Source of the DNA: a virus | Length of the DNA: 39,901 nucleotides | IMG/VR virus record: IMGVR_UViG_3300031566_005172 | Location: 1-39,901 of that record | Strand: one strand, 5' to 3' | Shown here: piece by piece, positions 8,454-32,124 of the stretch | Layout: each line of letters starts with the position of its first letter | Position numbering within the stretch: the first letter of the stretch is position 1 | Program-made: the position numbers and the translations under genes | The notes under the pieces: generated by a model | What the model was told of the DNA's origin: nothing | Seen by the model: only the letters and a program-made list of their open reading frames with translations | Databases searched by the model: none

Positions 8454-9716
8454 TCAATCTGTCTCCGGATCGTAACTCAAACCGTCGTACACCGGATGAC
8501 CACCCAACCCATTCAGGTCATCGAACACACACGGTTGAGCGTCGATCAACTCGTCCGTGGCGAACATATCGAACAACGCCAACTGAGGAGCACTGCGCAG
8601 CGCTCGCTGCAACCGTCGAATCTGATCCCCCAGCCCCGCCTTCATAATCGCCCGCCAGGCCTTCGGGTGCGTCTGCCGCAGTGCGTACAAATGATTGTCC
8701 GAATAGCGCAGATCTGTCGCGCAGAACATACAGCCATTGCGCTTGATGTGCTGCACCGAACCATCCTGAGCAACGAATGTCATATCGTAGAGCGGCGCGT
8801 AGGGCACCTCGAAGCGCCGGATATACTGCCACACATCCTCATCCGTCCAAACTGCCATTGGCTGGCAGTGAAAGAAGGGATCCCCCTGCAGATAGTCTTT
8901 CTTCCTGCCTTCGAATAAATACCCTCTGGTCAGAAAGTTCATAGCCCGCGTGCGACTCTCGGATGCCATTAGGCCTTTGAATACCAGATCCGCCCCGATC
9001 GTCTCCTGCACCCGCTCCGCAGGCTCCTTCTTCAGAATATCGCAACAGGCCTGGCTGATCTTCACCTCTCGCAGCACCTCGTAGTAACTCAGGAGCTTCG
9101 GATCCGCACTCTGGCTCTCCGAAAACCGCAGGAACGTATCGATGTTGATTCGCCGGGCCTTCAGCTTCGACCACGCTTTCCCGAGCAGCGGCCAGCCATA
9201 CTGGTCCGCACACCAGAAGTAGCTCTTCCGCATCCCCGACCGCCAGATCAATCGTTCGGCCTCAAACTCCTTCGCCAAATCCTCAGGACACGCCCGCTCC
9301 AGCGCCAGCGTGGACGTCAGCTTGCCATCGTTCTTTAGCACATCGCCAATCGTTCCGTCATCAATCAACCGCTGCCAGATCCGGCGTTGGGCCGCATACT
9401 TGTAATGTCTGCACTCAATTGAGCCAGGGCAGGCCTCATAGAACTCGACTCCCAATTCCTTCGTCCGAGAGCGCGCCCACTTCACACACTCGGGAAACTC
9501 CACCCCGGTATTCCCGTAGACGACCGCCACCCGCTGCGCCTGCTCCGGGAAATAGCGCTGAAGCAGATCGAGCAGCACCGTCGAATCCTTGCCACCGCTA
9601 AACGCGATCACAGGCCGGTGGGATACCGCAAGGGCTTCGCCAATCACCCATCGCGCTTTCTCCATCTTGTAATCGAGATCTCGCTGCTGTTCCTGATTCA
9701 GCTCCACCCAGTTCAT
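8454..9716 (-). CDS. PP-loop ATPase, APS/PAPS reductase-like (possible [4Fe-4S])
   Basis: The protein has 420 residues from the ATG at 9716; this start overlaps the stop of a 38-aa gene (ATGA), which favours it over the GTG at 9764. The PP-loop 'SGGKDS' lies at residues 40-45. A cysteine pair (224-225, in 'ACCDILKK') and a CxxC (329-332) are spaced like the cluster ligands of APS-type reductases, and 'WTDEDVWQYIRRFEVPY' (about 290-306) is typical of the family. DndC, the DNA phosphorothioation sulfurtransferase, is related. Phages often carry such proteins with unknown substrates. It sits downstream of an ASCH-like gene. No dndD/E or sulfate uptake gene is present. Confidence 0.85.
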   Translation of the reverse strand: MNWVELNQEQQRDLDYKMEKARWVIGEALAVSHRPVIAFSGGKDSTVLLDLLQRYFPEQAQRVAVVYGNTGVEFPECVKWARSRTKELGVEFYEACPGSIECRHYKYAAQRRIWQRLIDDGTIGDVLKNDGKLTSTLALERACPEDLAKEFEAERLIWRSGMRKSYFWCADQYGWPLLGKAWSKLKARRINIDTFLRFSESQSADPKLLSYYEVLREVKISQACCDILKKEPAERVQETIGADLVFKGLMASESRTRAMNFLTRGYLFEGRKKDYLQGDPFFHCQPMAVWTDEDVWQYIRRFEVPYAPLYDMTFVAQDGSVQHIKRNGCMFCATDLRYSDNHLYALRQTHPKAWRAIMKAGLGDQIRRLQRALRSAPQLALFDMFATDELIDAQPCVFDDLNGLGGHPVYDGLSYDPETD

Positions 9717-9829
9717 CGTGTGCCGGCCAGGTCGTCGCACTCGCCTGCCATAGCGCAACAGCACCAGGCGACAAAGGCCCCGCCCACAACGAACACGATC
9801 ACTATTCCCCAGCAGATTTGTTCAAGCAT
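9713..9829 (-). CDS. 38-aa single-pass membrane peptide
   Basis: A short frame (39 codons) with TTGGAGGC seven bases before its ATG. It overlaps the end of the ASCH-like gene by 28 bases, and its TGA overlaps the PP-loop ATG. Residues about 6-27 form one hydrophobic helix ('IVIVFVVGGAFVAW'), followed by three consecutive cysteines and an acidic C-terminus with another cysteine. Not a recognised family. The good ribosome binding site and both-sided packing support it. The cysteines make a membrane-held redox or metal partner conceivable, but this is speculation. Confidence 0.55.
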   Translation of the reverse strand: MLEQICWGIVIVFVVGGAFVAWCCCAMAGECDDLAGTR

Positions 9830-11929: not shown

Positions 11930-12133
11930 TCAATCCATACCTCGTGCCGCCTGGCCAGAGACCAGTAGTGCACTGGGCTGCTCCGGGCCGTACTCCGAGA
12001 GAATCTTCTTGAGCTGGTTCTCTCGGAGCCGCATGGCGCGGCGCATCATGTACTCGTCGTGATTCTCCAACCCGACCGCGACGTCGTCCTGGTACTGACA
12101 CAGTTGCCTGAGCTGCTTCTCGAGCGCGGTCAT
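11930..12133 (-). CDS. Small helical hypothetical protein
   Basis: The protein has 67 residues and overlaps the ParB-like gene by 4 bases. The charged N-terminal helix 'LEKQLRQLCQYQDDVAVGLEN' and a second with 'MRRAMRLRENQLKKILSE' suggest a short coiled coil. No family was recognised. Confidence 0.6.
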   Translation of the reverse strand: MTALEKQLRQLCQYQDDVAVGLENHDEYMMRRAMRLRENQLKKILSEYGPEQPSALLVSGQAARGMD

Positions 12134-13734
12134 ACCGCCGGCTCCATGACGCTCCCGCAGTCAGAGCAGACGAGGATGTAATCGCCGTCACTGTGTTTCA
12201 GTTCAATGTTCCCGCCACAGTCCGGGCACGCGAGGTCACCGCTGGCCTCAGCCGAAGGCGGAGCGTATTCAGGTTCTGCCCCTGGCCAGGGCGCGAGAAT
12301 GACATCGAGCAGGGTCTGTGCGGCGCGCTCGCCACGATCGCGGAGGGGTGGGAAGAAAATGGAGTCCAGTGCGTTGACGAAGTCAGCAAGCGACGCCGTC
12401 GTGCCCAGAACGGCCCGGAGTTCAGAGGGGCGGCGGTCGAGCAGCAATCGCTTGATCTTCTGCCAGGGTTCGAGCGTGAGCGGATCCTGTGTCGCGCGCG
12501 GGAAGTTGACGACGCGGGGATTTGGCGGCTTCTCCATCAGGGCCTGTGACCGGTACCTGTGGCGGAGATTATCCACTGCGCTGATCCACGTGGGTTTCAA
12601 CCACGTCGTGCGGGCCACATCTGGACGTCCATGTCCGAAGCCTGCAGGTACCTGGTAGTCATTGGAAGTGATGTCATCCAGAAACTCGATGCGCTCACGG
12701 AGGTTATTGTCACGAGACCCCCGCGTGCCGAACCGGGAATCCAGAAACACTTCGAACGCCTGCCGGAGTTCGTCGAGCGTCGCCACTTCTGGCGTGGATG
12801 ATGGTGAGTCCGGCCCGGCTTCCTGTTGAGCAGAGCCCAGATTCCGGCGTGGACGAAAGTGAATCCGGCCCGGCTCGTTCTTCTGGCGCTCTCTGTCTGG
12901 CTGCTCAGGTGGGGTGTAGCTGTACGTGGAATCGCCCCGGGTGACGGTGCGCTCTGATTCTATCTGGCAACCGTTGCCAGATAGACCGCGTTCTGTACGG
13001 ATATTGTCGACAAATGTGTGTGAGCACCCGACCTTGCGTGCCATCTCGCGACTCGACCAGTCCGGGTGCATGGTAAGGAGCCGCCCAACAGCCGCTCGTT
13101 TGTCGGCGCTGGTCATGGGGATGCCGTGGGTCGCGTTGCAGGTCGCGGCGTACTCCATCGCGTCCTGCTGGGTCCCGGCGTAGACCTCGGCCGGGATCGT
13201 GTACCGGTCATCCACGCACACCGCGGCCTTGTAGCGGTGGAACCCGTCCGCGAGGAACACGCGGTTGGTCGACCGGTTCCAGAACACGACCACGGCCGGG
13301 AATACGTCGCCGGCCTCCATCGCCCGCGCGTATTCATCCAGCCGGTCTGGATCGATGCCATTGACGCGGATCTGGACGGTCCGCATCATGTCCTTTGCCA
13401 GTCGTGCCAGGCTGATGTCAAATACGGTGCCGGCATAACCCTCTCCGGCGGCCGATCGTATCCGAGCCCAGCGCTGCGGCCATTTGCGGGTGTGGAGTGC
13501 GACGACGGTATCGAGCGCCGCGAGAGCCCGGCTGGTCTGTTGGTGAGGCGCGTAGCATGGCAGCCGAGCCATTCGCGCCGCCTCATGGACATACAGCCCG
13601 GCGTTGGCCACCCCGGCAGCGACCAGGGCCTTTGTTGCCCGGGCCTCGGCCAGGGTGAACTCCTGCGTTGAGGCGAGGAGCGCCTCTTTCTCGGCATCTG
13701 CGATGGGATTATCCGGTATAGCTGACGTGTTCAT
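12130..13734 (-). CDS. ParB/Srx-domain protein with HTH and C-terminal zinc ribbon
   Basis: The protein has 534 residues. The second ATG (13734) has AAAGGAG at correct spacing; the first (13740) touches it. Residues about 120-175 form a ParB/sulfiredoxin-type domain with the hallmark 'LADGFHRYKAAV'. A helix-turn-helix follows at about 218-245 ('SSREMARKVGCSHTFVDNI'), then a long charged linker, and a C-terminal ribbon with CPDC and CSDC pairs in the last 40 residues. ParB-like proteins bind DNA and CTP in partition; phage versions are often replication or regulatory factors. No ParA is encoded here, so classical partition is unlikely. It leads the replication part of the leftward operon. Confidence 0.85.
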   Translation of the reverse strand: MNTSAIPDNPIADAEKEALLASTQEFTLAEARATKALVAAGVANAGLYVHEAARMARLPCYAPHQQTSRALAALDTVVALHTRKWPQRWARIRSAAGEGYAGTVFDISLARLAKDMMRTVQIRVNGIDPDRLDEYARAMEAGDVFPAVVVFWNRSTNRVFLADGFHRYKAAVCVDDRYTIPAEVYAGTQQDAMEYAATCNATHGIPMTSADKRAAVGRLLTMHPDWSSREMARKVGCSHTFVDNIRTERGLSGNGCQIESERTVTRGDSTYSYTPPEQPDRERQKNEPGRIHFRPRRNLGSAQQEAGPDSPSSTPEVATLDELRQAFEVFLDSRFGTRGSRDNNLRERIEFLDDITSNDYQVPAGFGHGRPDVARTTWLKPTWISAVDNLRHRYRSQALMEKPPNPRVVNFPRATQDPLTLEPWQKIKRLLLDRRPSELRAVLGTTASLADFVNALDSIFFPPLRDRGERAAQTLLDVILAPWPGAEPEYAPPSAEASGDLACPDCGGNIELKHSDGDYILVCSDCGSVMEPAV

Positions 13735-13750
13735 GGTCATCTCCTTTCTC

Positions 13751-15005: not shown

Positions 15006-15881
15006 ATGAAACAGCTTGCGTTGCTACTCGTTGCCGTGCTGCTGGTCGTGCAGTGCGCTGGATGTGAGGCGGAAACTCCAGAGCCAACGCCTGTCCCAGC
15101 CACGTCGACGGCCCTTCCCACCGACGTACCCGAACCGACCCCGACGGATACCGCCACGCCGGAACCGACACCCACTCCCACGAAAACAGTCGAGCCTACT
15201 CCTGATCTGGTCGCGGCTACGTGTGTCGAGGTCATCGATGGCGACACGATCAAGGTGGACATCGACGGCACTGTGTACAGAGTTCGGTACATCGGCATCG
15301 ATTGCCCAGAGATGGGCCAGCAGTTCGGGGGCGAGGCATCCGAGGCGAATCGGCTGCTCGTGGAAGGGCAGGAGCTGCTTCTCGAGAAGGACGTCTCTGA
15401 GGTCGACCGGTACGACCGGCTGTTGCGGTATGTCTACCTGGCTACCGGGATGTTTGTGAATGCCGAGCTCGTGCGCACTGGGTATGCGATCGCGAAGCAG
15501 TATCCGCCTGATGTGAAATACGCCGCTGAATTTGCCGAAATGCAGCGCGAGGCTGAAGACGACGGCCTACTGGGTTGGTTGACGCCAGTGCCGACGGTGG
15601 CACCAACCGCAATCCCGACACCCGTCGCGACCGCCGTGCCACCAACAGCTGTACCGGTTCCCACTGCCGTGCCACCAACGCCCGTTCCGGTTCCACCCAC
15701 GGCCGTACCGGCGCCGGTTCCGGACGCGAACTGCGACCCGGCTTACCCCCATGTTTGCATCCCCTCGCCACCGCCGGATCTGGACTGCGGGGATATACCC
15801 TACCGGCGGTTCAGGGTGCTCCCGCCGGATCCGCACGGATTTGACGCGGATAATGATGGCATTGGATGCGAGAGTGGGTAG
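15006..15881 (+). CDS. Secreted lipoprotein thermonuclease with Excalibur domain
   Basis: The protein has 291 residues, with GAGGAGGT before the ATG. Residues 1-20 are a lipoprotein signal ending in a candidate acylated Cys20 (the residue at -3 is Cys, unusual). A Pro/Thr/Glu-rich linker follows (21-68), then a staphylococcal-type nuclease domain (about 72-191) with 'VIDGDTIKVD', 'RYIGIDCPE' and 'DRYDRLLR', holding the calcium aspartates and active arginines. A second Pro/Val/Thr linker leads to an Excalibur calcium-binding motif ('DADNDGIGCE', about 278-289). It would degrade nucleic acid outside the cytoplasmic membrane. As it follows the repressor on the same strand it may be made in lysogens, perhaps attacking incoming DNA. 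Confidence 0.9.
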   Translation: MKQLALLLVAVLLVVQCAGCEAETPEPTPVPATSTALPTDVPEPTPTDTATPEPTPTPTKTVEPTPDLVAATCVEVIDGDTIKVDIDGTVYRVRYIGIDCPEMGQQFGGEASEANRLLVEGQELLLEKDVSEVDRYDRLLRYVYLATGMFVNAELVRTGYAIAKQYPPDVKYAAEFAEMQREAEDDGLLGWLTPVPTVAPTAIPTPVATAVPPTAVPVPTAVPPTPVPVPPTAVPAPVPDANCDPAYPHVCIPSPPPDLDCGDIPYRRFRVLPPDPHGFDADNDGIGCESG

Positions 15882-17719: not shown

Positions 17720-18100
17720 ATGGATGCAGCACTGCAACTGATAGCGAGTCAGGTGAAGATTGTCGCGTTGCTGATGTTTGCCGCGTTTGTGATCGAGGCG
17801 ATCGTCGAATATCTGGCGGCAAGTTGGCTCAAGGTGGTGATCAAGGACGCTGAGTGGCGAGCGGTTGTACTCCGGTGGACTGCTGGAGCCGTCGGCGTCT
17901 TCTTTTGTGCGATTTGGGGCGTCGATCTGATGAGCGCGGTTGTCAGTGCGTTTGGGTTTGAACCACTCCACACGCAGACGGCGTTCTGGTTCGGCATCGT
18001 GATGACCGGCCTGATGATCGGGCGCGGCGCGAACTGGTTGCACGATCTGGCCAGGCGGTGGTTCGGATTGGATCAGAACCTGCCATTCGTAGCTCAATAG
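17720..18100 (+). CDS. Holin-like membrane protein
   Basis: The protein has 126 residues with three predicted membrane helices (about residues 10-33, 48-70 and 85-103), charged loops and a short tail. GGGGG precedes the ATG. The size and topology are those of a class I holin, which would form lesions to release or activate the lysin. The assignment depends on topology and on the lysin gene two genes downstream. Confidence 0.7.
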   Translation: MDAALQLIASQVKIVALLMFAAFVIEAIVEYLAASWLKVVIKDAEWRAVVLRWTAGAVGVFFCAIWGVDLMSAVVSAFGFEPLHTQTAFWFGIVMTGLMIGRGANWLHDLARRWFGLDQNLPFVAQ

Positions 18101-18114
18101 ACACGGAGGCCCAG

Positions 18115-18378
18115 ATGGACATTGCGGCAGGGATCGCGCTGGTAGTCTCAATCGTAGGAATCACGATATCTGTACTGAATGCGCGATCTTCGGCGCGCAC
18201 AGATGAAGTGAGCACCCTGACCGACATTATTCATGCGTTGCAGGGCAGGGTTGATGCTCTCGAGATAGAAGTCCAGAAGTGGCAGCGGCGCTACAAGGCG
18301 CTCTGCGACTGGGTGCGTGGCAAGGGGTTGGACCCAGACGAGGCAGAGTTGATGCAGTTTGAGGATGAGGGTGGATGA
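18115..18378 (+). CDS. N-terminal membrane anchor plus coiled coil (lysis accessory)
   Basis: The protein has 87 residues with GGAGG before the ATG at 18115. Residues 1-23 form one membrane helix, residues about 25-65 a coiled coil, followed by an acidic tail. Its layout resembles spanin-type or XhlA-like lysis accessories, though XhlA has its anchor at the other end. It overlaps the lysin by 4 bases (ATGA). A second holin or antiholin is the alternative. Confidence 0.6.
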   Translation: MDIAAGIALVVSIVGITISVLNARSSARTDEVSTLTDIIHALQGRVDALEIEVQKWQRRYKALCDWVRGKGLDPDEAELMQFEDEGG

Positions 18379-21300
18379 TGGATTACACGCTGAACCGGAT
18401 CGAGACGGACGGGTTCGAGCAGGAGTGGGTCGAGGACCACGGTCACGACGTGCTGGTGGTGACGGAGCCGGGCGGCCCGGCCGCGCTGCGCGCGATTGGC
18501 AGTATCTTCGATCAACCCGGCTGGCTATTCTGGATGCACCACGTCCCCGACGTCTGGGATCAGCCCGAGGCGCGCGATGCGTGGGTCAAGAACGATTCCC
18601 GGCGTGTTCGTACCGGCGCCAAGGCGGCGATGTGGTTCACGGTCTGGCGAAAACATCGCGCCGGCATGTTGCGCAAGATCGCCGTCCTCCCCGGCCAGCA
18701 CGTGACATTCAGTTTCTATGCTCACTGCTGGTCCAACGGCCTCTCCGCACATCTCGATGATCCGTACTGGTCCGATGGAGCTGGTAATGTGATTGTCGAT
18801 TGGCTGGAGGCTGACGTTCTCCCTCGAGGGACTGGCAACCCGGAGCACGACGCGATGAGCAACCTGGTGCTGCGTGCCGGCATCCATCCACGTGGAGGAC
18901 AGAACCCGCTCGATGACGTGATGATCTGGAGCGCCGGCCGGTGCATTTTCAACGGCTACTCTGCGCGCCCGATCTCGGTCTCGTGTATCGTGCCGGCAGG
19001 GGTGACCGAGATCACGGTGGTCATGGAGTCGATCGCCCACTATCCGTTCAAGCACAATGACGTCTACGTGGACAGCGCTTCGGTGACGATCGAGGATCCG
19101 GTCTCTGCGCAGCCGGTGGCGTCAGGGAGCAAGCTCGGGCTGCACATCCTCCAGAACGGCCCGGGCGTGGCGGAGTGCCTGGCCGCGAGGCCCGCCGTCG
19201 CCGTGTTCGATGGTGAATGGGGCCTGAGCTCGTCAATGCCGGCCGGGACGCTGTGCATCGGCACGATCTCACACACGTCGTTCGATGCCCAGCAGCTGTA
19301 CAACGATGGCAAGACGCCGGCCGCGGCGGCCAAATACCTGTTCGACAAGGATTGCGCGAAATACTATCTGCCTCATCCTCGAATCACTCACTGGACAGGC
19401 TGCAATGAGGCCGTGTGGACAACACGCGAGCAGATGAGCTGGTATGCACAGTTTGAGATCGAGCGCATCAAGCTACTGGCCACAATCGGGAAGGCCGCAG
19501 TGATCGGGGAGTTCGCCACGGGCACGCCAGAGTTTCAGCAATGGCCCGAGTTCCTGCCGGCGCTGCGGTATGGCGCTGATCACGGGGCCCTGCTGGGGTT
19601 GCACGAGTACAGCTGTCCCTGGATGTGGTGGATGACCGGCTCGTACCAGGTGGATCCGAACGAAGATCAGGGAGACGAGGGTTGGAGCACACTGCGCTAC
19701 CGCAAGGTGAAGCGGCAGATCCTGGAGCCCAATGGGATTAACATCCCGATCGTGATCACTGAGTGTGGCATCGATCCGGGCAGCAATCCAAAGCCGCCTG
19801 GGGCCCCAGCTGCGACCTGGAAAGGCCTTGGCGACTATTGGCGCGAGCACGACGGCAAAGAGGACAAAGCCGCATATTACGTAGAACAACTGATCTGGTA
19901 CGATGATGAGCTGCGCAAAGACAAGTACGTCAAAGGCGCGGCCATCTTCTGTGCTGGAAATTATGGGAAGCCCTGGTCAGATTTCGATATCGCAGGCAGC
20001 CCGGTGATCGAGGCCGTGACGCAGCGCGTCATGAGTGTCCTGGATCCGCCTTATATTCCAGAAGAACCACCTGAGGATCCGCCCCATGAACCGGGCCGTG
20101 GGGCCCCTCGCGTGCAGTACAAGAGCCGTGTGAACGTTGTCCCTGCGGACGCGACTGAAGAGCAGGCAATCGCTATTTTCGCCGAAGGTTGGCGTAGAAG
20201 CCGTGAGATGACCGGTGGCAGCTATGACCAGGCCGGAATCGGTGACCTTGACGAGCGGACGGCGGCTCTGTATGGCATCGATCGAGACGACCAGCAGGAA
20301 TACATTGATTTCTATGTTGACTACTATCCGGGCGTCACAGTAGAGTTTGCCCCGCTGCCGGGCGAACTCTCTGAGCTGAAATTGGCCTATCCTAGCACGC
20401 ATATGCCCCCCGTGATAACGTCCAAATTCAACGAAAACCGCGGGACGTACATCCACAAGGGGCTTGATCTGCGTTCCTCTTGGCGCGTGTGGCGTGACAA
20501 ACTGATCTGCGCGCTGACTGGCGAGGTGATCACGTCCTCGGACATTGGCAGCGGCTACGGCATACAGGTGCGCACGGAAACGATCCTGGGTGATGGCCGC
20601 CAGGTGCTGATTCGTTATGCTCATCTCGTCGACGGCGACCGTGTCGCAGTTGGTGATCATGTCGCGGTGGGTGACGTGATCGGCTTGCCGGACAGCACGG
20701 GTAATTCTACCGCCGATCATCTGCACTTCGACGTCAAGATCGACGGGGAATACGTCGATCCTGAACCGCTGATCGATTGGCCGGCAGAGAAGCCTGAGCC
20801 ACCGGCGAATGGAGCAATCCGCGGCGTGCATGGCGCCCCTGTGACGTTTCCTCCATCAGATCAAACGTTCTGGCTCCAGGAGCTGAAGGCCATGGGGATC
20901 TACTGGTACAAGGACATGTCGTGTGATGTGTCCTGGTGCAAACGGCTTTTGGATGCTGGCATAGAGCCCGTCGTGCGGCTGTACCAGGGAGAGCAGTTCC
21001 CAGGCCGGCTATCAAATGACCGATTTGAAGCGGCCCGGCGCCTGATCGATGCGGGTGTGTTCTACTTCGAGATCGGCAATGAGCCGAATTTGACGTGCGA
21101 GTGGAAGTCCAGCTACAAAGACCAGGTCGACTGGCACAATGATGATCTCGTCAGGCAGGTTGCATACAACTGGTGGCTGGATGCTCAGAAGATCGCTGCA
21201 ATGGGCGGCAAGCCGAGCCTGTACGCGATGGCCCCCACAGAGCGATCCGGCGGATGCAATGAGCGCTATTCGTCCGTGCGTTGGCTGGAGAAGTATTTGG

Positions 21301-21761
21301 CTGCGCTGCACAAGATCACGCCAATGACGATTGTTGATCTGGTGGAATCGGGGGACGTGTGGATGGCCGTGCACGTATCTCCGTTTGATCGCCCGTTTCT
21401 CTACGATCCATACGTGAACGGGCCTCATCCTGATGATATGTGCCTGCGGGCATTCGAGGTCTATGGTGCCATCGCAGAGGTGGCCCTGGGCGTGCTTCCC
21501 CTGATGATCAGCACCGAGGGCGGTCTGTACAGTCCTGAGCATCTGGACTTTCTGGGATGGACCCCCTATTCAGAAAACGAGTGGGCGGACCGTATGCCTG
21601 AGATGTTCGAATTCATCGCAGAACAGTACCCCTACGTCCTGGGGATGTGTCCGTGGATCCTCACAGATCTGGGGGTGGCAGATCCGCGTTGGTTGAACAA
21701 TGGCTGGTACCGTGGCGTTGAGCCCCGGCCTGTGGCGCTGGCCCTGCGGAGGACGCACTGA
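18375..21761 (+). CDS. 1128-aa lysin: glycosidase barrel - M23 peptidase - glycosidase barrel
   Basis: An N-terminal beta-rich region (about residues 1-240) resembles a carbohydrate-binding module. Residues about 250-570 look like a clan GH-A TIM barrel, with 'GCNEA' (acid/base Glu345) and 'ITECG' (nucleophile Glu463). A Pro-rich linker leads to an M23/LytM peptidase (about 660-800) with 'HKGLDL' (His694, Asp698) and 'HLHFD' (His782, His784), the zinc ligands. A second GH-A-like barrel (about 820-1128) has 'GNEPN' (Glu903) and 'STEGG' (Glu1048). All three sites look intact. It sits behind a holin-like gene and overlaps the HNH start by one base (TGATG). A secreted tail lysin is the alternative, but no tail genes are adjacent. 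No signal peptide is seen. Confidence 0.85.
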   Translation: MMDYTLNRIETDGFEQEWVEDHGHDVLVVTEPGGPAALRAIGSIFDQPGWLFWMHHVPDVWDQPEARDAWVKNDSRRVRTGAKAAMWFTVWRKHRAGMLRKIAVLPGQHVTFSFYAHCWSNGLSAHLDDPYWSDGAGNVIVDWLEADVLPRGTGNPEHDAMSNLVLRAGIHPRGGQNPLDDVMIWSAGRCIFNGYSARPISVSCIVPAGVTEITVVMESIAHYPFKHNDVYVDSASVTIEDPVSAQPVASGSKLGLHILQNGPGVAECLAARPAVAVFDGEWGLSSSMPAGTLCIGTISHTSFDAQQLYNDGKTPAAAAKYLFDKDCAKYYLPHPRITHWTGCNEAVWTTREQMSWYAQFEIERIKLLATIGKAAVIGEFATGTPEFQQWPEFLPALRYGADHGALLGLHEYSCPWMWWMTGSYQVDPNEDQGDEGWSTLRYRKVKRQILEPNGINIPIVITECGIDPGSNPKPPGAPAATWKGLGDYWREHDGKEDKAAYYVEQLIWYDDELRKDKYVKGAAIFCAGNYGKPWSDFDIAGSPVIEAVTQRVMSVLDPPYIPEEPPEDPPHEPGRGAPRVQYKSRVNVVPADATEEQAIAIFAEGWRRSREMTGGSYDQAGIGDLDERTAALYGIDRDDQQEYIDFYVDYYPGVTVEFAPLPGELSELKLAYPSTHMPPVITSKFNENRGTYIHKGLDLRSSWRVWRDKLICALTGEVITSSDIGSGYGIQVRTETILGDGRQVLIRYAHLVDGDRVAVGDHVAVGDVIGLPDSTGNSTADHLHFDVKIDGEYVDPEPLIDWPAEKPEPPANGAIRGVHGAPVTFPPSDQTFWLQELKAMGIYWYKDMSCDVSWCKRLLDAGIEPVVRLYQGEQFPGRLSNDRFEAARRLIDAGVFYFEIGNEPNLTCEWKSSYKDQVDWHNDDLVRQVAYNWWLDAQKIAAMGGKPSLYAMAPTERSGGCNERYSSVRWLEKYLAALHKITPMTIVDLVESGDVWMAVHVSPFDRPFLYDPYVNGPHPDDMCLRAFEVYGAIAEVALGVLPLMISTEGGLYSPEHLDFLGWTPYSENEWADRMPEMFEFIAEQYPYVLGMCPWILTDLGVADPRWLNNGWYRGVEPRPVALALRRTH

Positions 21762-24711: not shown

Positions 24712-24927
24712 ATGAGGATATTCAACAGGTATCCGGTGATCCGGACGGTGCTGGTGAATACAAAGTCGGGAAATACGTTCCGCGGGGTGCTGTTTGCACA
24801 GCGCCGGCGGTACCTGGTGCTGAAGCAGGCTCAGATGCTGCGGCGCGACAAGGAGCCCCTGGCGGTGGATGGCGAGGTGATCGTGCCGGCCGAGAACGTG
24901 GACTTCCTGCAAGTGGTGAACGGATGA
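24712..24927 (+). CDS. Sm-like small protein preceding the portal
   Basis: The protein has 71 residues. 'VLVNTKSGNTFRGVLFAQRRRYLVLKQAQML' and 'VDGEVIVPAENVDFLQVV' follow the beta pattern of Sm/Hfq-like small barrels. Small proteins of this kind are found just before the portal in many siphoviruses. Their role is unknown, possibly structural or RNA-binding. It overlaps the portal by 4 bases. Confidence 0.6.
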   Translation: MRIFNRYPVIRTVLVNTKSGNTFRGVLFAQRRRYLVLKQAQMLRRDKEPLAVDGEVIVPAENVDFLQVVNG

Positions 24928-27900
24928 TTGTGCAGACGCTGGGCGCGCTGACTGCGTTGGATTCGGGGTACAGCACGCCGCTGAGCTATGGGAGCATCCG
25001 GATGTACAACCAGCGGAGCTACGATTATGCGACGCTCTACCGGACGCAGCCCAACGTGCGGACGTGCGTGGACTTCCTGGCCAGGAACATTGCCCAGCTG
25101 GGGCTGCACGTCTTCCGGCGTGTGAGCGATACGGACCGGGAACGGCTGACGGATCACCCATTGGCTGAACTGCTGTCCCGTCCCCTACCGGTGGCGATGA
25201 AGGTGACGCGGTACCGGCTGATCGAGGCGATGATCAGCGACATGGGCGTGTACTTCAATGCGTACTGGCTGAAGATGGAGCAGGGCGGCGGGAAGAAAGC
25301 GTTGCTGCGTGTTCCGCCTGATCTGGTGACGGTGAAAGGGAGCCTGAGTCCGCTATCGTATGAGATCAGCCTCGGGGGGAAGCGGCTGGTGGTCGCTCCC
25401 GAGGACATCGTGCACTTCCGTGGCTACAACCCGGAGAATCCCATCTCCGGCCTGTCCCCGCTGGAAACGCTGCGGCGCGTGTTGGCGGAGGAGTTCTCGA
25501 TGGGGGACTATCGCGAGGATTTCTGGCAAAACGCCGCGCGGATGTACGGGATCATCAAGCGGCCCTCGAGTGCGCCGGAGTGGAGCACCCAGGCCCGCGA
25601 GCGGTTCAAGAGTGAATACGAGGCGCTACATTCGGGTTCTGGCAGCAGCGGCCGGACGGCGATCCTGGAAGATGATATGGAATGGCAGGAAATGTCATTC
25701 AACGCTCAGGAGAGCGAGTATCTGGGTGGGCGGAGATTGACGCGTGAGGAATGCGCGCGGGCGTACCATATCCCGCTGCCGATGGTGGGGATCCTGGAGC
25801 ACGCGACGTTCTGCTTGCCCGCGCATGTTCCTGTGTTCACCGAGATGGGCCCACGTCCGATTGCTGAGGTGGCAGTTGGCGAGCGTGTCTGGAGTCACGA
25901 TGGGGCCGGGTTTGTCCTGAAGTCAGTCATTCGATCCGGGCAGATTGGCATCGATCCAATACTCCGAATCAGGACGCAGAACCGGATACTCGAAGCCAAC
26001 ACGAAGCATCCTGTGCTTGTGCGCCGGCTGGTCCGCGTGGCAGGCGTCGCCGATCCGACTGCATCAAGCAAGGTTAGGGCGGGGCAAACACGGTGGCACT
26101 ACGAAACACAGCACGTCTACGTCACGGCGGGCGAAATCCGGCGGGGAGACATTCTGGTAGCACTCAAAGAGCTGCCGGAAGGCGCGCCGCAGCAATCTAT
26201 CGCGCGCATGGAGTTCTATGGTCTACTGCTTGGAGATGGGAATGTCTATCCCAAAACTGGAAGCGTAACGATTGCGCGGGCGAATGATGCACCGTATATG
26301 GATCACTACCGGGGTATCATGCGCAGCGAGTTTGAGTCCTTTGGGAATCACGGGAACGGCAAGACAAGAGAAGACGTGCCAACGCAGCCCGTGACTCTGG
26401 TTGAAGGGGATCGGCAAACACGTTTCGCGTCCGTGGTGGCAGTCGAGGAACTGAGCAGCCTCGGGTTGTGCGGGACGGCGCATACCAAGCGCGTGCCGGG
26501 ATGGGTATTCGGCGCGACGCGTGACGAACGGTTAGCGTTCTTGCGCGGGTATCTCGACTCGGATGGCTCAGTCGACAAGCGCGGAAAGATTTCCTATTCC
26601 TCCTGTAACCCAGACCTGATCGAGGATGTTCGTCATCTATGCATGAGCCTGGGTGTGCCAGTCAACAATGCGTATCACCGGGTTGGCCAAACGATACTGC
26701 CGACCGGAGACGTTGGCGACGTTGATCAGTGGGCAATCACCTGCTCCGATCCTGCTGCAAACCGGATGATTGGATCACATAACCCGCGCCACCAGAAACG
26801 ATTGATCGATGGACGGGGCTGGGACAGGAAGGGCAAAGAGTATCCGTTTGCGAAAGGGAGGCGAAGCGATCCACCTGTTGGCTGCGAATATTCGCGAGTG
26901 GTCGATATAGAGACGTTGCCAGCCGAGGCGGTCTATAACCTAGAAGTGGAGGGCAATCACAACTTTATCGCTGCAGGGGTGATCGTCCATAACTCCAACA
27001 TCAAGGAACAACACAAGAACCTATATCAAGATTCGCTGGGGCCTTGGCTGGCGATGATCGAAGAGGACATCGTGCTGCAACTGCTGACGGATTACGACGA
27101 CAGCGACGGGGTGTATGTGGAGTTCAACATCCAGGAGAAGTTGCAGGGGAGTTTCGAGGAGCAGGCTCAGGGATTCCAGACCGCGGTTGGACGGCCGTGG
27201 ATGGAAGCAAATGAGGCGCGGGCCCGGATGAACCTGCCGCAATTGGCGGGGGGTGATGGTCTGGCGCTGCCGCTGAATATGCTGATTGGGGACCCGGCGG
27301 CGGGGCCAGCTGGCGGCGGGGCTGATGCATCAGTCGGTGATGGTGACGAGGATGCGCAGGCCGGTGGGGATGAAGGTGAGCCGAAGGGCCGGCAGCTTCC
27401 AGGGCAAAAGGCGGCGCGGGTCGATCCTACGCTACCGGAGCTGCGGAAACGACACGAGGAGCAGTGGGCCCGGGTGATGGCGCAGACGTTCCGCCGGCAG
27501 ATGGATGCGACCGTTGGGAAAGTGCCCGCTGATGCGGGTGGCGTAGTACTCCTGGAGGAGCTGTGGGACAGGGCGCGATGGGACAGGGAGATGCATGCCG
27601 ACCTGTTCCGGCTGAACAACGCAACGGCGACGGTCTGGGGTGAATACGTCGCGGAACAGTTGGCGTTTGAGCTGGAAAGCGAGCGGATGGTGGGGTGGCT
27701 GGATGAGCACTCCCGGATCCAGGCGGAATATATCAACGGCGTCACGCGGGATCAGATCGGGCAGGCGCTGATCGAGGAAGAGCCACGTTCAGCAGTGCGG
27801 CGCCTGTTCGAGCTCGCGATCGCAGTCCGGGCGATCCAGATCGCCGTGAGCGCGGTTACGAGCGCGAGTGCGTTTGGATCGAATGAAGGCGCGCAGCAGG

Positions 27901-28085
27901 GTGGGCTCAAGACGAAACGCTGGCAGGTGAATAGCTCGAACCCTCGTGACGAACATCTGATGATGAACGGGGAGACGGTCGGGATCGGGGAATTATTCTC
28001 TAATGGCATGAAGTGGCCGGGCGACCCTGCCGGTGGGGCTGATAATAATGCGAACTGTCAATGCTCGGTTACATTTGGGAGGTAG
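24924..28085 (+). CDS. Portal-MuF fusion interrupted by an intein
   Basis: The 1053-residue precursor has an HK97-type portal N-extein (1-296), a 394-residue intein (297-690) and a C-extein (691-1053). The C-extein first completes the portal ('SNIKEQHKNLYQDSLGPWL'), then from about 790 carries a MuF-type head morphogenesis domain ending in 'DEHLMMNG' and 'NCQC' motifs. Spliced length is 659. The portal is the dodecameric DNA gate; MuF proteins are usually separate and enter the head, so their fusion here is notable. The ATG overlaps the previous stop (ATGA). Confidence 0.92.
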   Translation: MIVQTLGALTALDSGYSTPLSYGSIRMYNQRSYDYATLYRTQPNVRTCVDFLARNIAQLGLHVFRRVSDTDRERLTDHPLAELLSRPLPVAMKVTRYRLIEAMISDMGVYFNAYWLKMEQGGGKKALLRVPPDLVTVKGSLSPLSYEISLGGKRLVVAPEDIVHFRGYNPENPISGLSPLETLRRVLAEEFSMGDYREDFWQNAARMYGIIKRPSSAPEWSTQARERFKSEYEALHSGSGSSGRTAILEDDMEWQEMSFNAQESEYLGGRRLTREECARAYHIPLPMVGILEHATFCLPAHVPVFTEMGPRPIAEVAVGERVWSHDGAGFVLKSVIRSGQIGIDPILRIRTQNRILEANTKHPVLVRRLVRVAGVADPTASSKVRAGQTRWHYETQHVYVTAGEIRRGDILVALKELPEGAPQQSIARMEFYGLLLGDGNVYPKTGSVTIARANDAPYMDHYRGIMRSEFESFGNHGNGKTREDVPTQPVTLVEGDRQTRFASVVAVEELSSLGLCGTAHTKRVPGWVFGATRDERLAFLRGYLDSDGSVDKRGKISYSSCNPDLIEDVRHLCMSLGVPVNNAYHRVGQTILPTGDVGDVDQWAITCSDPAANRMIGSHNPRHQKRLIDGRGWDRKGKEYPFAKGRRSDPPVGCEYSRVVDIETLPAEAVYNLEVEGNHNFIAAGVIVHNSNIKEQHKNLYQDSLGPWLAMIEEDIVLQLLTDYDDSDGVYVEFNIQEKLQGSFEEQAQGFQTAVGRPWMEANEARARMNLPQLAGGDGLALPLNMLIGDPAAGPAGGGADASVGDGDEDAQAGGDEGEPKGRQLPGQKAARVDPTLPELRKRHEEQWARVMAQTFRRQMDATVGKVPADAGGVVLLEELWDRARWDREMHADLFRLNNATATVWGEYVAEQLAFELESERMVGWLDEHSRIQAEYINGVTRDQIGQALIEEEPRSAVRRLFELAIAVRAIQIAVSAVTSASAFGSNEGAQQGGLKTKRWQVNSSNPRDEHLMMNGETVGIGELFSNGMKWPGDPAGGADNNANCQCSVTFGR
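25812..26993 (+). other. Intein with LAGLIDADG endonuclease domain (residues 297-690)
   Basis: The splice start is Cys297 ('CLPAHVPVFTEMG'). The TxxH-like B block is 'NTKHPVL'. Block F 'VYNLEVEGNHNFIAAG' ends with 'VIVHN', and the next residue is Ser (+1 extein nucleophile). Endonuclease motifs are 'FYGLLLGDG' and 'FLRGYLDSDGS', both with the acidic residue. It therefore looks able to splice and home. The site is in the most conserved portal stretch ('ATF/SNIKEQ'), a typical intein position. Confidence 0.93.
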
Positions 28086-30357: not shown

Positions 30358-32124
30358 ATGGCGCTGCGCGTACATATCGTCTGCCAGAATCCTACCGATG
30401 ACCGCATTATACCGCGGATGGCGCGGGTTCTGCGGGAGCGGCTGGGGTGGACGCTGAGCGCAGCGCCTGACAAATCCTGTGAGGCAATGTATCTGAGCGC
30501 GTACTTCGAGGCGCAACGTCTCAAGCCATGGCCGGATGATGTTCCGGTCGCGGCGTACTTCACACATCGGGAGGAGATGCCTCCCGGAAACGACAAGGCG
30601 CGGGTATTCGAGCGTGTGGGCAGCCAGGTGCAGCTCAGGATCGTGACGTGCAAGCTATACGGGGATCAACTGAGCATTCACGGCCCGACGGCTCAGGTGG
30701 CCGCGCCGCTGGAGCGGGATCATTTTACGCTGGCGAAGCAAACGAAACATAAGCGGCCGGTGATCGGGTTTTCTGGGTATACGTACCGGAACCAGCGCAA
30801 AGGCGAGGACCTGGCGCGGGGGTTGACGGAGTCGGATATCGCGATGCGGGTGGAGTGGCGCGCGTCGGGGCGGGGCTGGCCGGTGACGACGCACCGGTTC
30901 AACTGGGCGGAGATGCCGGCGTTCTACCAGGGTTTGGACGTGCTGGTGTGCCCGAGCCGTGTCGAGGGCATCCCGATGCCGCCCCTCGAGGCGTTGGCCT
31001 GTGGGGTGAGGATCGTGATCCCCCGCGGCGTGGGCATGCTGGACGAACTGCCGGATGTGGCGGGGATTTATCGATTCGACCGGGGCGATTTGCCGAGTCT
31101 GCTGGAGGCGTTGGAGCGAGCGGCGTTTCCAGGCGAGCCGGTAGACCGTGAGGAGCTGCGGGCGGTGACGGAGCCGTACTCGATCGAGGCATGGTGCGAG
31201 GATCACGAACGGGCGTTCGAGGAGGCGTTTGACTGGGGCAACGCGGGGATAGAGGAAAGCCCTCACCCCCCGACCCCCTCTCCCGAGAAGCCAGGAGAGG
31301 GGGAGAAGATGGATTCCAGCTGGATCCCCGCTTCCGCGGGGATGACAGGGAATGATGGCGAGGTGGAAATGGCGAAGCTCAAGGACCATGGGACGGGATC
31401 CACGCGGGGGATCTACTGTGTGGCGTTTGGGGATCCGGCCAGGACGGTGTGCCTGCGGATGATGGAGAGCGCAAAGAAACATATGCCGGAGATCCCGATC
31501 GCGCTGTGCAGCGACCGGAAGATCGGGGCGGAGGACGTGCTGATCGTCGAACCGGACAGCGACATCGGGGGACGGAGGGCGAAGTTGAAGGCGTACGAGC
31601 TCGCGCCGGCGGAATGGCAGAGCGTGCTATACCTGGATGCGGACACTGAGGTGGTGGCGCCGGTATACCAGTTCTTCGAATGGGTCGAGGACGGCTGGGA
31701 GCTGGTGATTTGTACCGATCTGGAGCAGACGTTGCATCGTTTAGAGCGGCGGGTCGAAGCGAATGAGATGACAGTGATTGAGACGCTGACCGGATCGCTG
31801 CACATAGCGCAGCTCAATGGCGGCGTGTGGGCGTTCAGGCGTTGCCCCGCGGTCGCGGAGTTCTTCGCCCGGTGGCGTGCGGAATACGAGAAGTTCCTGC
31901 AACGCGACCAGGGGGCGCTGATCCGAGCGCTGTACGCGGCGCCGCTCAAGGTCTGGTTATTGGGGTTGGAGTGGAACACCTTCGTGCCGCATTGCCGGGG
32001 CGTGACCACGGCGGGAATCCGGCACTATCCGGGGCGAGCGCGGCGTTGGAAGAAGATGGTTCGCGGGCGCCTGGACGGGCCGGTGGCGTGGGCCGCCGTG
32101 AAGAAATTCGAGGGGGTGCAGTGA
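30358..32124 (+). CDS. Bifunctional glycosyltransferase (GT4-like + GT-A/GT8-like)
   Basis: The protein has 588 residues. Residues about 1-295 look like a GT-B, family-4-type transferase with 'VCPSRVEGIPMPPLEALACG' (E-x7-E, about 203-211). A low-complexity linker (301-335) derived from hairpin repeats follows. Residues about 348-588 resemble a GT-A fold with 'YLDADTEV' (Asp427/Asp429, metal DxD). Both parts look complete. It lies in the head operon after the capsid, pointing to virion glycosylation. SD-like AAGGAAC precedes the ATG. Confidence 0.85.
   Translation: MALRVHIVCQNPTDDRIIPRMARVLRERLGWTLSAAPDKSCEAMYLSAYFEAQRLKPWPDDVPVAAYFTHREEMPPGNDKARVFERVGSQVQLRIVTCKLYGDQLSIHGPTAQVAAPLERDHFTLAKQTKHKRPVIGFSGYTYRNQRKGEDLARGLTESDIAMRVEWRASGRGWPVTTHRFNWAEMPAFYQGLDVLVCPSRVEGIPMPPLEALACGVRIVIPRGVGMLDELPDVAGIYRFDRGDLPSLLEALERAAFPGEPVDREELRAVTEPYSIEAWCEDHERAFEEAFDWGNAGIEESPHPPTPSPEKPGEGEKMDSSWIPASAGMTGNDGEVEMAKLKDHGTGSTRGIYCVAFGDPARTVCLRMMESAKKHMPEIPIALCSDRKIGAEDVLIVEPDSDIGGRRAKLKAYELAPAEWQSVLYLDADTEVVAPVYQFFEWVEDGWELVICTDLEQTLHRLERRVEANEMTVIETLTGSLHIAQLNGGVWAFRRCPAVAEFFARWRAEYEKFLQRDQGALIRALYAAPLKVWLLGLEWNTFVPHCRGVTTAGIRHYPGRARRWKKMVRGRLDGPVAWAAVKKFEGVQ
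31258..31350. repeat. Two-hairpin repeat element in the linker
   Basis: CCCCCTCTCC (31274-31283) pairs with GGAGAGGGGG (31294-31303), and CCCCGC (31326-31331) pairs with GCGGGG (31336-31341). It resembles intergenic bacterial repeats but stays in frame (residues 301-335). Confidence 0.7.

Follow-up and report, generated by a model that had tools for sequence, protein, structure and literature searches.

A large predicted phage lysin combining an M23 peptidase with two GH-A barrels, in a virus whose host is most likely a member of the Chloroflexota

We analyzed the 39,901-base record of an uncultivated virus (IMG/VR record IMGVR_UViG_3300031566_005172, positions 1 to 39,901; the whole stretch is called the window here), and in particular a gene on its plus strand for a lysin with three apparently intact catalytic domains, as judged from sequence and structural models. 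An initial annotation, made from the letters alone, had divided the protein into four parts, i.e., a beta-rich N-terminus, a barrel of glycoside hydrolase (GH) clan GH-A, an M23 peptidase and a second GH-A barrel. All four were found, but a fifth part at about residues 574-665, which we call LINK, had been missed. The open reading frame (ORF) was confirmed, and the modules are as follows (L094 is a viral relative described below; aa, amino acids; pLDDT, predicted local distance difference test).

18375..21761, plus strand: three-enzyme lysin gene, 1128 aa, a single ATG-to-stop ORF with signs of purifying selection relative to L094
18375..19109, plus strand: N-domain (residues 1-245), predicted jelly-roll, probably carbohydrate-binding; pLDDT about 80-95 in the model; Foldseek matches CBM61, CBM16 and CBM4-2
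19128..20057, plus strand: barrel 1 (residues 252-561), predicted clan GH-A, putative acid/base E345 and nucleophile E463, from models, alignment and fold search
20094..20369, plus strand: LINK (residues 574-665), predicted β-α-β-α-β-α-β fold with motif GGSxDxAGIGDL; without a Pfam or NCBIfam model
20412..20780, plus strand: peptidase M23 (residues 680-802, with H694, D698, H750, H782 and H784); Pfam, 2.3e-12; these residues are invariant in 5 aligned rows
20811..21758, plus strand: barrel 2 (residues 813-1128), predicted clan GH-A, E903/E1048, from models, alignment and fold search

A Pfam search of the lysin returned a single match, i.e., PF01551 at residues 694-796, with 47.4 bits against a cut-off of 28.7, and both zinc motifs of peptidase family M23 (HxxxD and HxH) are present. 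Since Pfam sees only the M23 domain, the N-domain, barrel 1, LINK and barrel 2 were delimited by comparison. Four of the five modules lie outside Pfam and NCBIfam, so that the lysin family is hidden from annotation; one of them, LINK, is a previously undescribed α/β domain of ~95 residues. When profiles built from barrel 2 and from the full alignment were compared with solved structures, M23 was again the sole notable match. Kinship between barrel 1 and barrel 2 was not detectable by profile comparison, and a recent internal duplication is therefore unsupported.

AlphaFold modeling of the full-length protein (mean pLDDT 79) predicted a (β/α)8 barrel at both ends. Barrel 1 has eight strands, with E345 four residues past strand β4 and E463 on β7, and modeling barrel 1 with LINK apart from the rest gave the same layout (eight strands, E345 just past β4, E463 on β7). 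Barrel 2 is also eight-stranded, with E903 three residues past β4 and E1048 closing β7. The pattern that defines clan GH-A, i.e., a (β/α)8 fold with Asn-Glu at the end of β4 and Glu at the end of β7, is thus predicted for both. The best VIA-align matches of barrel 1 were GH39, GH5, GH2, GH158, GH86 and plant β-glucanases of GH17 (Z 15-17, root-mean-square deviation 3.4-4.9, 236-264 residues), the search with the barrel 1 plus LINK model covering the barrel part; those of barrel 2 were GH39, PslG, GH128 and GH1 (Z about 19-20, root-mean-square deviation 2.7-4.3, 224-285 residues). We take all of these families to belong to clan GH-A. Because the best matches all fall within this clan but in several families, the clan is secure for both modeled barrels, whereas the GH family is not. 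GH39 leads the matches but is level with other GH-A families, and a sequence match to any GH family was not found. In comparison with known clan GH-A glycosidases (GH39, PslG, GH128, GH5, GH17 and GH2), both barrels share the fold, the Asn-Glu past β4 and the Glu on β7, but identity in the structural alignment is about 7-19% and there is no sequence match to a Pfam family or solved structure.

LINK was modeled as a β-α-β-α-β-α-β unit both in the full-length protein and together with barrel 1. For the N-terminus the model gave a jelly-roll, in keeping with the beta-rich region described initially; Foldseek matches to CBM61, CBM16 and CBM4 were assigned to it by size and fold, the ranges not being given. 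The M23 region, with five alignment rows, was weakly modeled; it was identified by its sequence.

The residues named in the initial annotation (NE345, E463, H694, D698, H782, H784, NE903 and E1048) all lie where it had placed them, and its assignments of an M23 peptidase and two GH-A barrels agree with the Pfam match and the models, respectively. In a 31-row alignment N344/E345, H410/E411, E463, H694, D698, H750, H782, H784, N902/E903 and E1048 were invariant wherever the domain was present. Across 19 homologues of barrel 1, with identities down to 20%, there were 17 invariant columns, which include N344, E345, H410, E411 and E463; E903 and E1048 were invariant in all of the barrel 2 rows aligned. 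The nearest relative of the lysin, L094, is 79% identical over 592 residues. The ratios of non-synonymous to synonymous change against L094 (dN/dS, Nei-Gojobori) were 0.135 for LINK, 0.094 for M23 and 0.159 for barrel 2, values that are rough, with synonymous change near 1 per site. These ratios indicate that all the parts tested, i.e., LINK, M23 and barrel 2, are under purifying selection.

Two GH-A barrels and one muralytic domain also occur together in at least nine other viral proteins (eight of them complete, 1034-1188 residues).

L034: 1102 aa, order N-GHA-LINK-M23-GHA, identical to that of the window lysin
L028: 1135 aa, muralytic part M23; second barrel of a different family
L098: 1145 aa, muralytic part Amidase_2
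L003: 1034 aa, muralytic part Amidase_2; second barrel of a different family
L027: 1188 aa, muralytic part C39-like
L032: 1106 aa, muralytic part C39-like; second barrel of a different family
L031: 1113 aa, muralytic part C39-like; second barrel of a different family
L017: 1127 aa, muralytic part C39-like; second barrel of a different family
L094: close relative; the contig end cuts barrel 1

Barrel 1, barrel 2, the N-domain and the end barrel of L003 served as queries against IMG/VR and brought up these relatives; a pattern scan with barrel 2 alone returned none, alignment with L027 and L034 being needed for matches. All nine share two GH-A barrels, a muralytic domain and LINK with the window lysin, but the muralytic type differs (M23, Amidase_2 or C39-like) and the domain order varies. 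The C39-like domains, which were above the Pfam cut-off in L023 and below it in L017 and others, have a conserved C, H, D pattern, to which most members add Q. Subsets of the lysin parts occur in L020, L022, L023, L026, L029 and L030. The window lysin is one of an undescribed, recurring viral family of at least ten proteins with the muralytic domain exchanged, a recurrence that the initial annotation had missed.

Natural endolysins mostly have one or two catalytic domains. The lysins with three that we found in the literature are engineered LysK-lysostaphin chimeras (PMC5784253), and a survey of lysin models does not name a GH-A type in the passage available (PMC11267937). M23 phage endolysins (PHROG 3578, 6700 and 880) share the M23 residues and the lysis-gene setting with the window lysin, but match it at the M23 region only, the other modules being unmatched in PHROGs, Pfam and INPHARED at the cut-offs used. 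Likewise, a tblastn search of 50,697 cultured-phage records with the whole lysin and one host homologue gave nothing outside M23 at the chosen thresholds; with the limit relaxed to E 10, the ten best-listed rows covered the LINK end and the M23 region only, with E about 1 or worse. No Chloroflexota phage lysin of this type was found in the open-access literature, subscription literature being outside the search.

Homologues of the N-domain were found at 17 viral loci and in Chloroflexota genomes. In one viral contig (L025:5588-6475) the N-domain is the sole module, preceded by a signal- or lipoprotein-like N-terminus; this may be a surface-masking or exclusion protein of the prophage. In L001:7998-10715 the parts are divided between two abutting in-frame ORFs (N plus LINK, and barrel 1 plus LINK plus M23) with one stop codon between them.

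Two genes lie directly upstream of the lysin gene.

17720..18100, plus strand: holin-like membrane protein, 126 aa, 2-3 hydrophobic segments; called by topology; phrog_20258, of unknown function
18115..18378, plus strand: 87-aa protein with an N-terminal transmembrane (TM) segment and a coiled coil; weak match to an Rz-like spanin

The holin call was made on topology alone, since the matching PHROG has no known function; the stop codon of the TM/coiled-coil gene overlaps the lysin start codon in the sequence ATGA. With these genes directly 5', the lysis cassette proposed initially holds up. The order of holin-like membrane protein, TM/coiled coil and lysin is as in the window in L002. Downstream of the lysin gene come, in order, genes for an HNH protein, the terminase small and large subunits, a portal (with an intein), a protease and a capsid protein, and the order of lysin, HNH and terminase is kept in L094. 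The lysin itself has no N-terminal hydrophobic or TM segment. The window thus contains the features expected of an endolysin, i.e., an apparently intact muralytic M23 domain, a holin-like gene nearby and no signal peptide of its own. It also contains a repressor-like gene and a serine integrase, the latter indicating that the phage is temperate.

Homologues of barrel 1, the N-domain and LINK, as well as relatives of the terminase large subunit (TerL), occur in Chloroflexota genomes, which makes a member of the Chloroflexota group that carries the modules the most likely host. The TerL relatives, with 71% and 82% identity, are in two Chloroflexota bins, one of which also has homologues of the portal and of a glycosyltransferase.

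We consider it probable that the gene encodes an endolysin of a temperate tailed phage of a Chloroflexota bacterium, acting with a holin, in which M23 cuts the peptide stems of peptidoglycan and the GH-A barrels cut a non-murein glycan linked to the wall. The lysin, lacking a signal peptide, would accumulate in the cytoplasm until the holin encoded upstream opened the membrane and gave it access to the wall. There the N-domain may bind wall glycan, LINK would probably anchor or position the enzyme on the Chloroflexota wall, and M23 would cut the peptide stems or cross-bridges. The barrels are expected to cut glycans attached to or covering peptidoglycan, most likely a β-linked non-murein wall polysaccharide. 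That the barrels do a separate job is suggested because M23, Amidase_2 and C39-like domains replace one another among the viruses while the two GH-A barrels stay. According to PMC3368417, Chloroflexota have no lipopolysaccharide outer membrane and have an L-ornithine peptidoglycan, and a title cited there (Jurgens 1989) refers to a peptidoglycan-polysaccharide complex in Herpetosiphon. The suggestion in the initial annotation of an envelope with glycans beyond plain peptidoglycan thereby gains indirect support, i.e., from that wall complex, from the modules in Chloroflexota hosts and from the non-lysozyme folds, while the substrate itself we infer. The two barrels, combined with an exchangeable peptidoglycan cutter in several uncultivated virus lineages, hint at a second glycan barrier in the walls of these Chloroflexota that has to be cut for lysis.

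Several points weigh against the endolysin proposal. Catalysis by the barrels, and lysis itself, are predictions from sequence and models. Matches to xylosidase, glucanase, mannosidase and glucuronidase families differ by no more than about 1-2 Z, and the fold gives no barrel substrate. The host genomes are metagenome-assembled genomes (MAGs), and the TerL kin may be binning artefacts. According to PMC11267937, a large size and many domains are more often a mark of virion-associated lysins, and in L001, L003 and L007 the lysin gene lies directly 3' of apparent tail genes. The last two points also speak for a virion-associated lysin or depolymerase, acting at entry rather than exit, as does the resemblance of a jelly-roll N-domain with GH barrels to tail depolymerases; Foldseek matches of the lysin in BFVD include tail fibres and one phage GH5 protein. 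However, the window gene is neither within a tail module nor fused to a tail protein; it stands behind the holin-like pair, and the terminase rather than tail genes lies on its 3' side, as in L094, which counts for an endolysin. Pfam detected no tail part, and the only PHROG tail match (to a tape-measure family) falls on the M23 region. We regard an entry function as decidedly unlikely.

The same endolysin might instead use its GH-A barrels on the glycan strand of peptidoglycan, as a non-canonical muramidase or glucosaminidase, in which case no extra wall polysaccharide would be needed. The barrels do accompany a muralytic domain in nearly all of the long viral proteins read, and host paralogues adjoin ftsZ, as a murein enzyme might. 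Nevertheless, the nearest folds are hydrolases of xylan, glucan, mannan and glucuronide, and such a task would not call for two distinct GH-A barrels in the one protein. This alternative seems to us unlikely, and a non-murein glycan remains our preferred target for the barrels.

The bacterial relatives are chromosomal, and barrel 1, the N-domain and LINK are frequent in the Chloroflexota order that holds G007. A profile of barrel 1 plus LINK matched 42 of 48 genomes of this order, many through LINK alone, and 8 of 301 when the phylum was sampled evenly. In Chloroflexota MAGs the combination of barrel 1 and LINK is a protein of about 420-455 aa, adjoining an ABC-F ATPase gene and often coaE. 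An origin of these copies as prophage remnants was rejected in view of the same ABC-F/coaE neighbors in several MAGs. A protein of N plus LINK lies directly 3' of radC in most genomes read, several genomes have a protein of about 650-670 aa with a GH-A-like barrel, M23 and two LINKs, and in others barrel 1, LINK and C39-like repeats are encoded beside ftsZ. These host proteins share modules, the pairing of GH-A with M23 and the lack of a signal peptide with the window lysin, but most have 350-900 aa and lie outside phage gene neighborhoods. The signal-less host relatives at chromosomal sites, the intermingling of viral and host sequences in the barrel 1 tree (several nodes of which are weak) and the temperate character of the phage would also fit an envelope enzyme copied from the host and carried by the phage, with a role in remodeling exopolysaccharide or the lysogen surface rather than in lysis. 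The position of the window gene among late genes, with a holin-like gene 5' and the terminase 3', the lack of an export signal and the intact M23 domain argue against this, and we give that idea hardly any credence relative to an endolysin.

The site 3' of radC in L055 (2976-6185) carries, in place of the usual short N plus LINK protein, one of 1069 aa with M23, a GH-A-like barrel, an N-domain and LINK. Beside ftsZ in L082-L084 and L067-L070 (Chloroflexota), barrel 1 is degenerate (NE changed to AE) and accompanied by LINK and C39-like repeats; L070 and L084 have lost the barrel 1 nucleophile as well.

Host proteins with LINK differ from those without it in their signal peptides. Of the 51 host ORFs that contain LINK and are complete at the 5' end, 50 had no Sec, lipoprotein or Tat signal, the sole positive being an internal false match, whereas relatives of the N-domain or barrel 1 without LINK had a signal in 26 of 31 cases (Fisher p about 3e-15). 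The scan was a simple hydrophobicity and twin-arginine test. The p value overstates the evidence, because the rows are related by descent and the contrast was suggested by proteins of the same set; the contrast does, however, extend over several architectures. A signal peptide in L102 was rejected, as the scan match lies deep inside the protein. One explanation, which we put forward tentatively and consider doubtful, is that LINK, as a module specific to Chloroflexota, serves for targeting or export in place of the signal peptide of host wall enzymes and was adopted by phages to aim lysins at the same wall sites. If so, the phage lysin would point to a route not yet described in these bacteria, or to wall enzymes that they store in the cytosol. 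With LINK shared between phage and host, where it goes with wall enzymes that have no signal peptide, the deployment of such enzymes can be tested directly.

Elsewhere in the window, the portal gene (24924-28085) is split by an intein in which Pfam recognizes a LAGLIDADG homing endonuclease; a related portal in the Chloroflexota bin G313 (L145:6799-8874, 691 aa) is far shorter. A glycosyltransferase gene (30358-32124) lies directly 3' of the major capsid gene, and G313 has a 55% identical gene. The product of 15006-15881 has a lipoprotein-like N-terminus, a Pfam SNase domain (2.8e-17) and a C-terminal DxDxDGxxCE stretch resembling the Excalibur motif. Finally, PAPS reductase-like and ParB-like genes (8454-9764 and 12130-13740) adjoin the integrase region.

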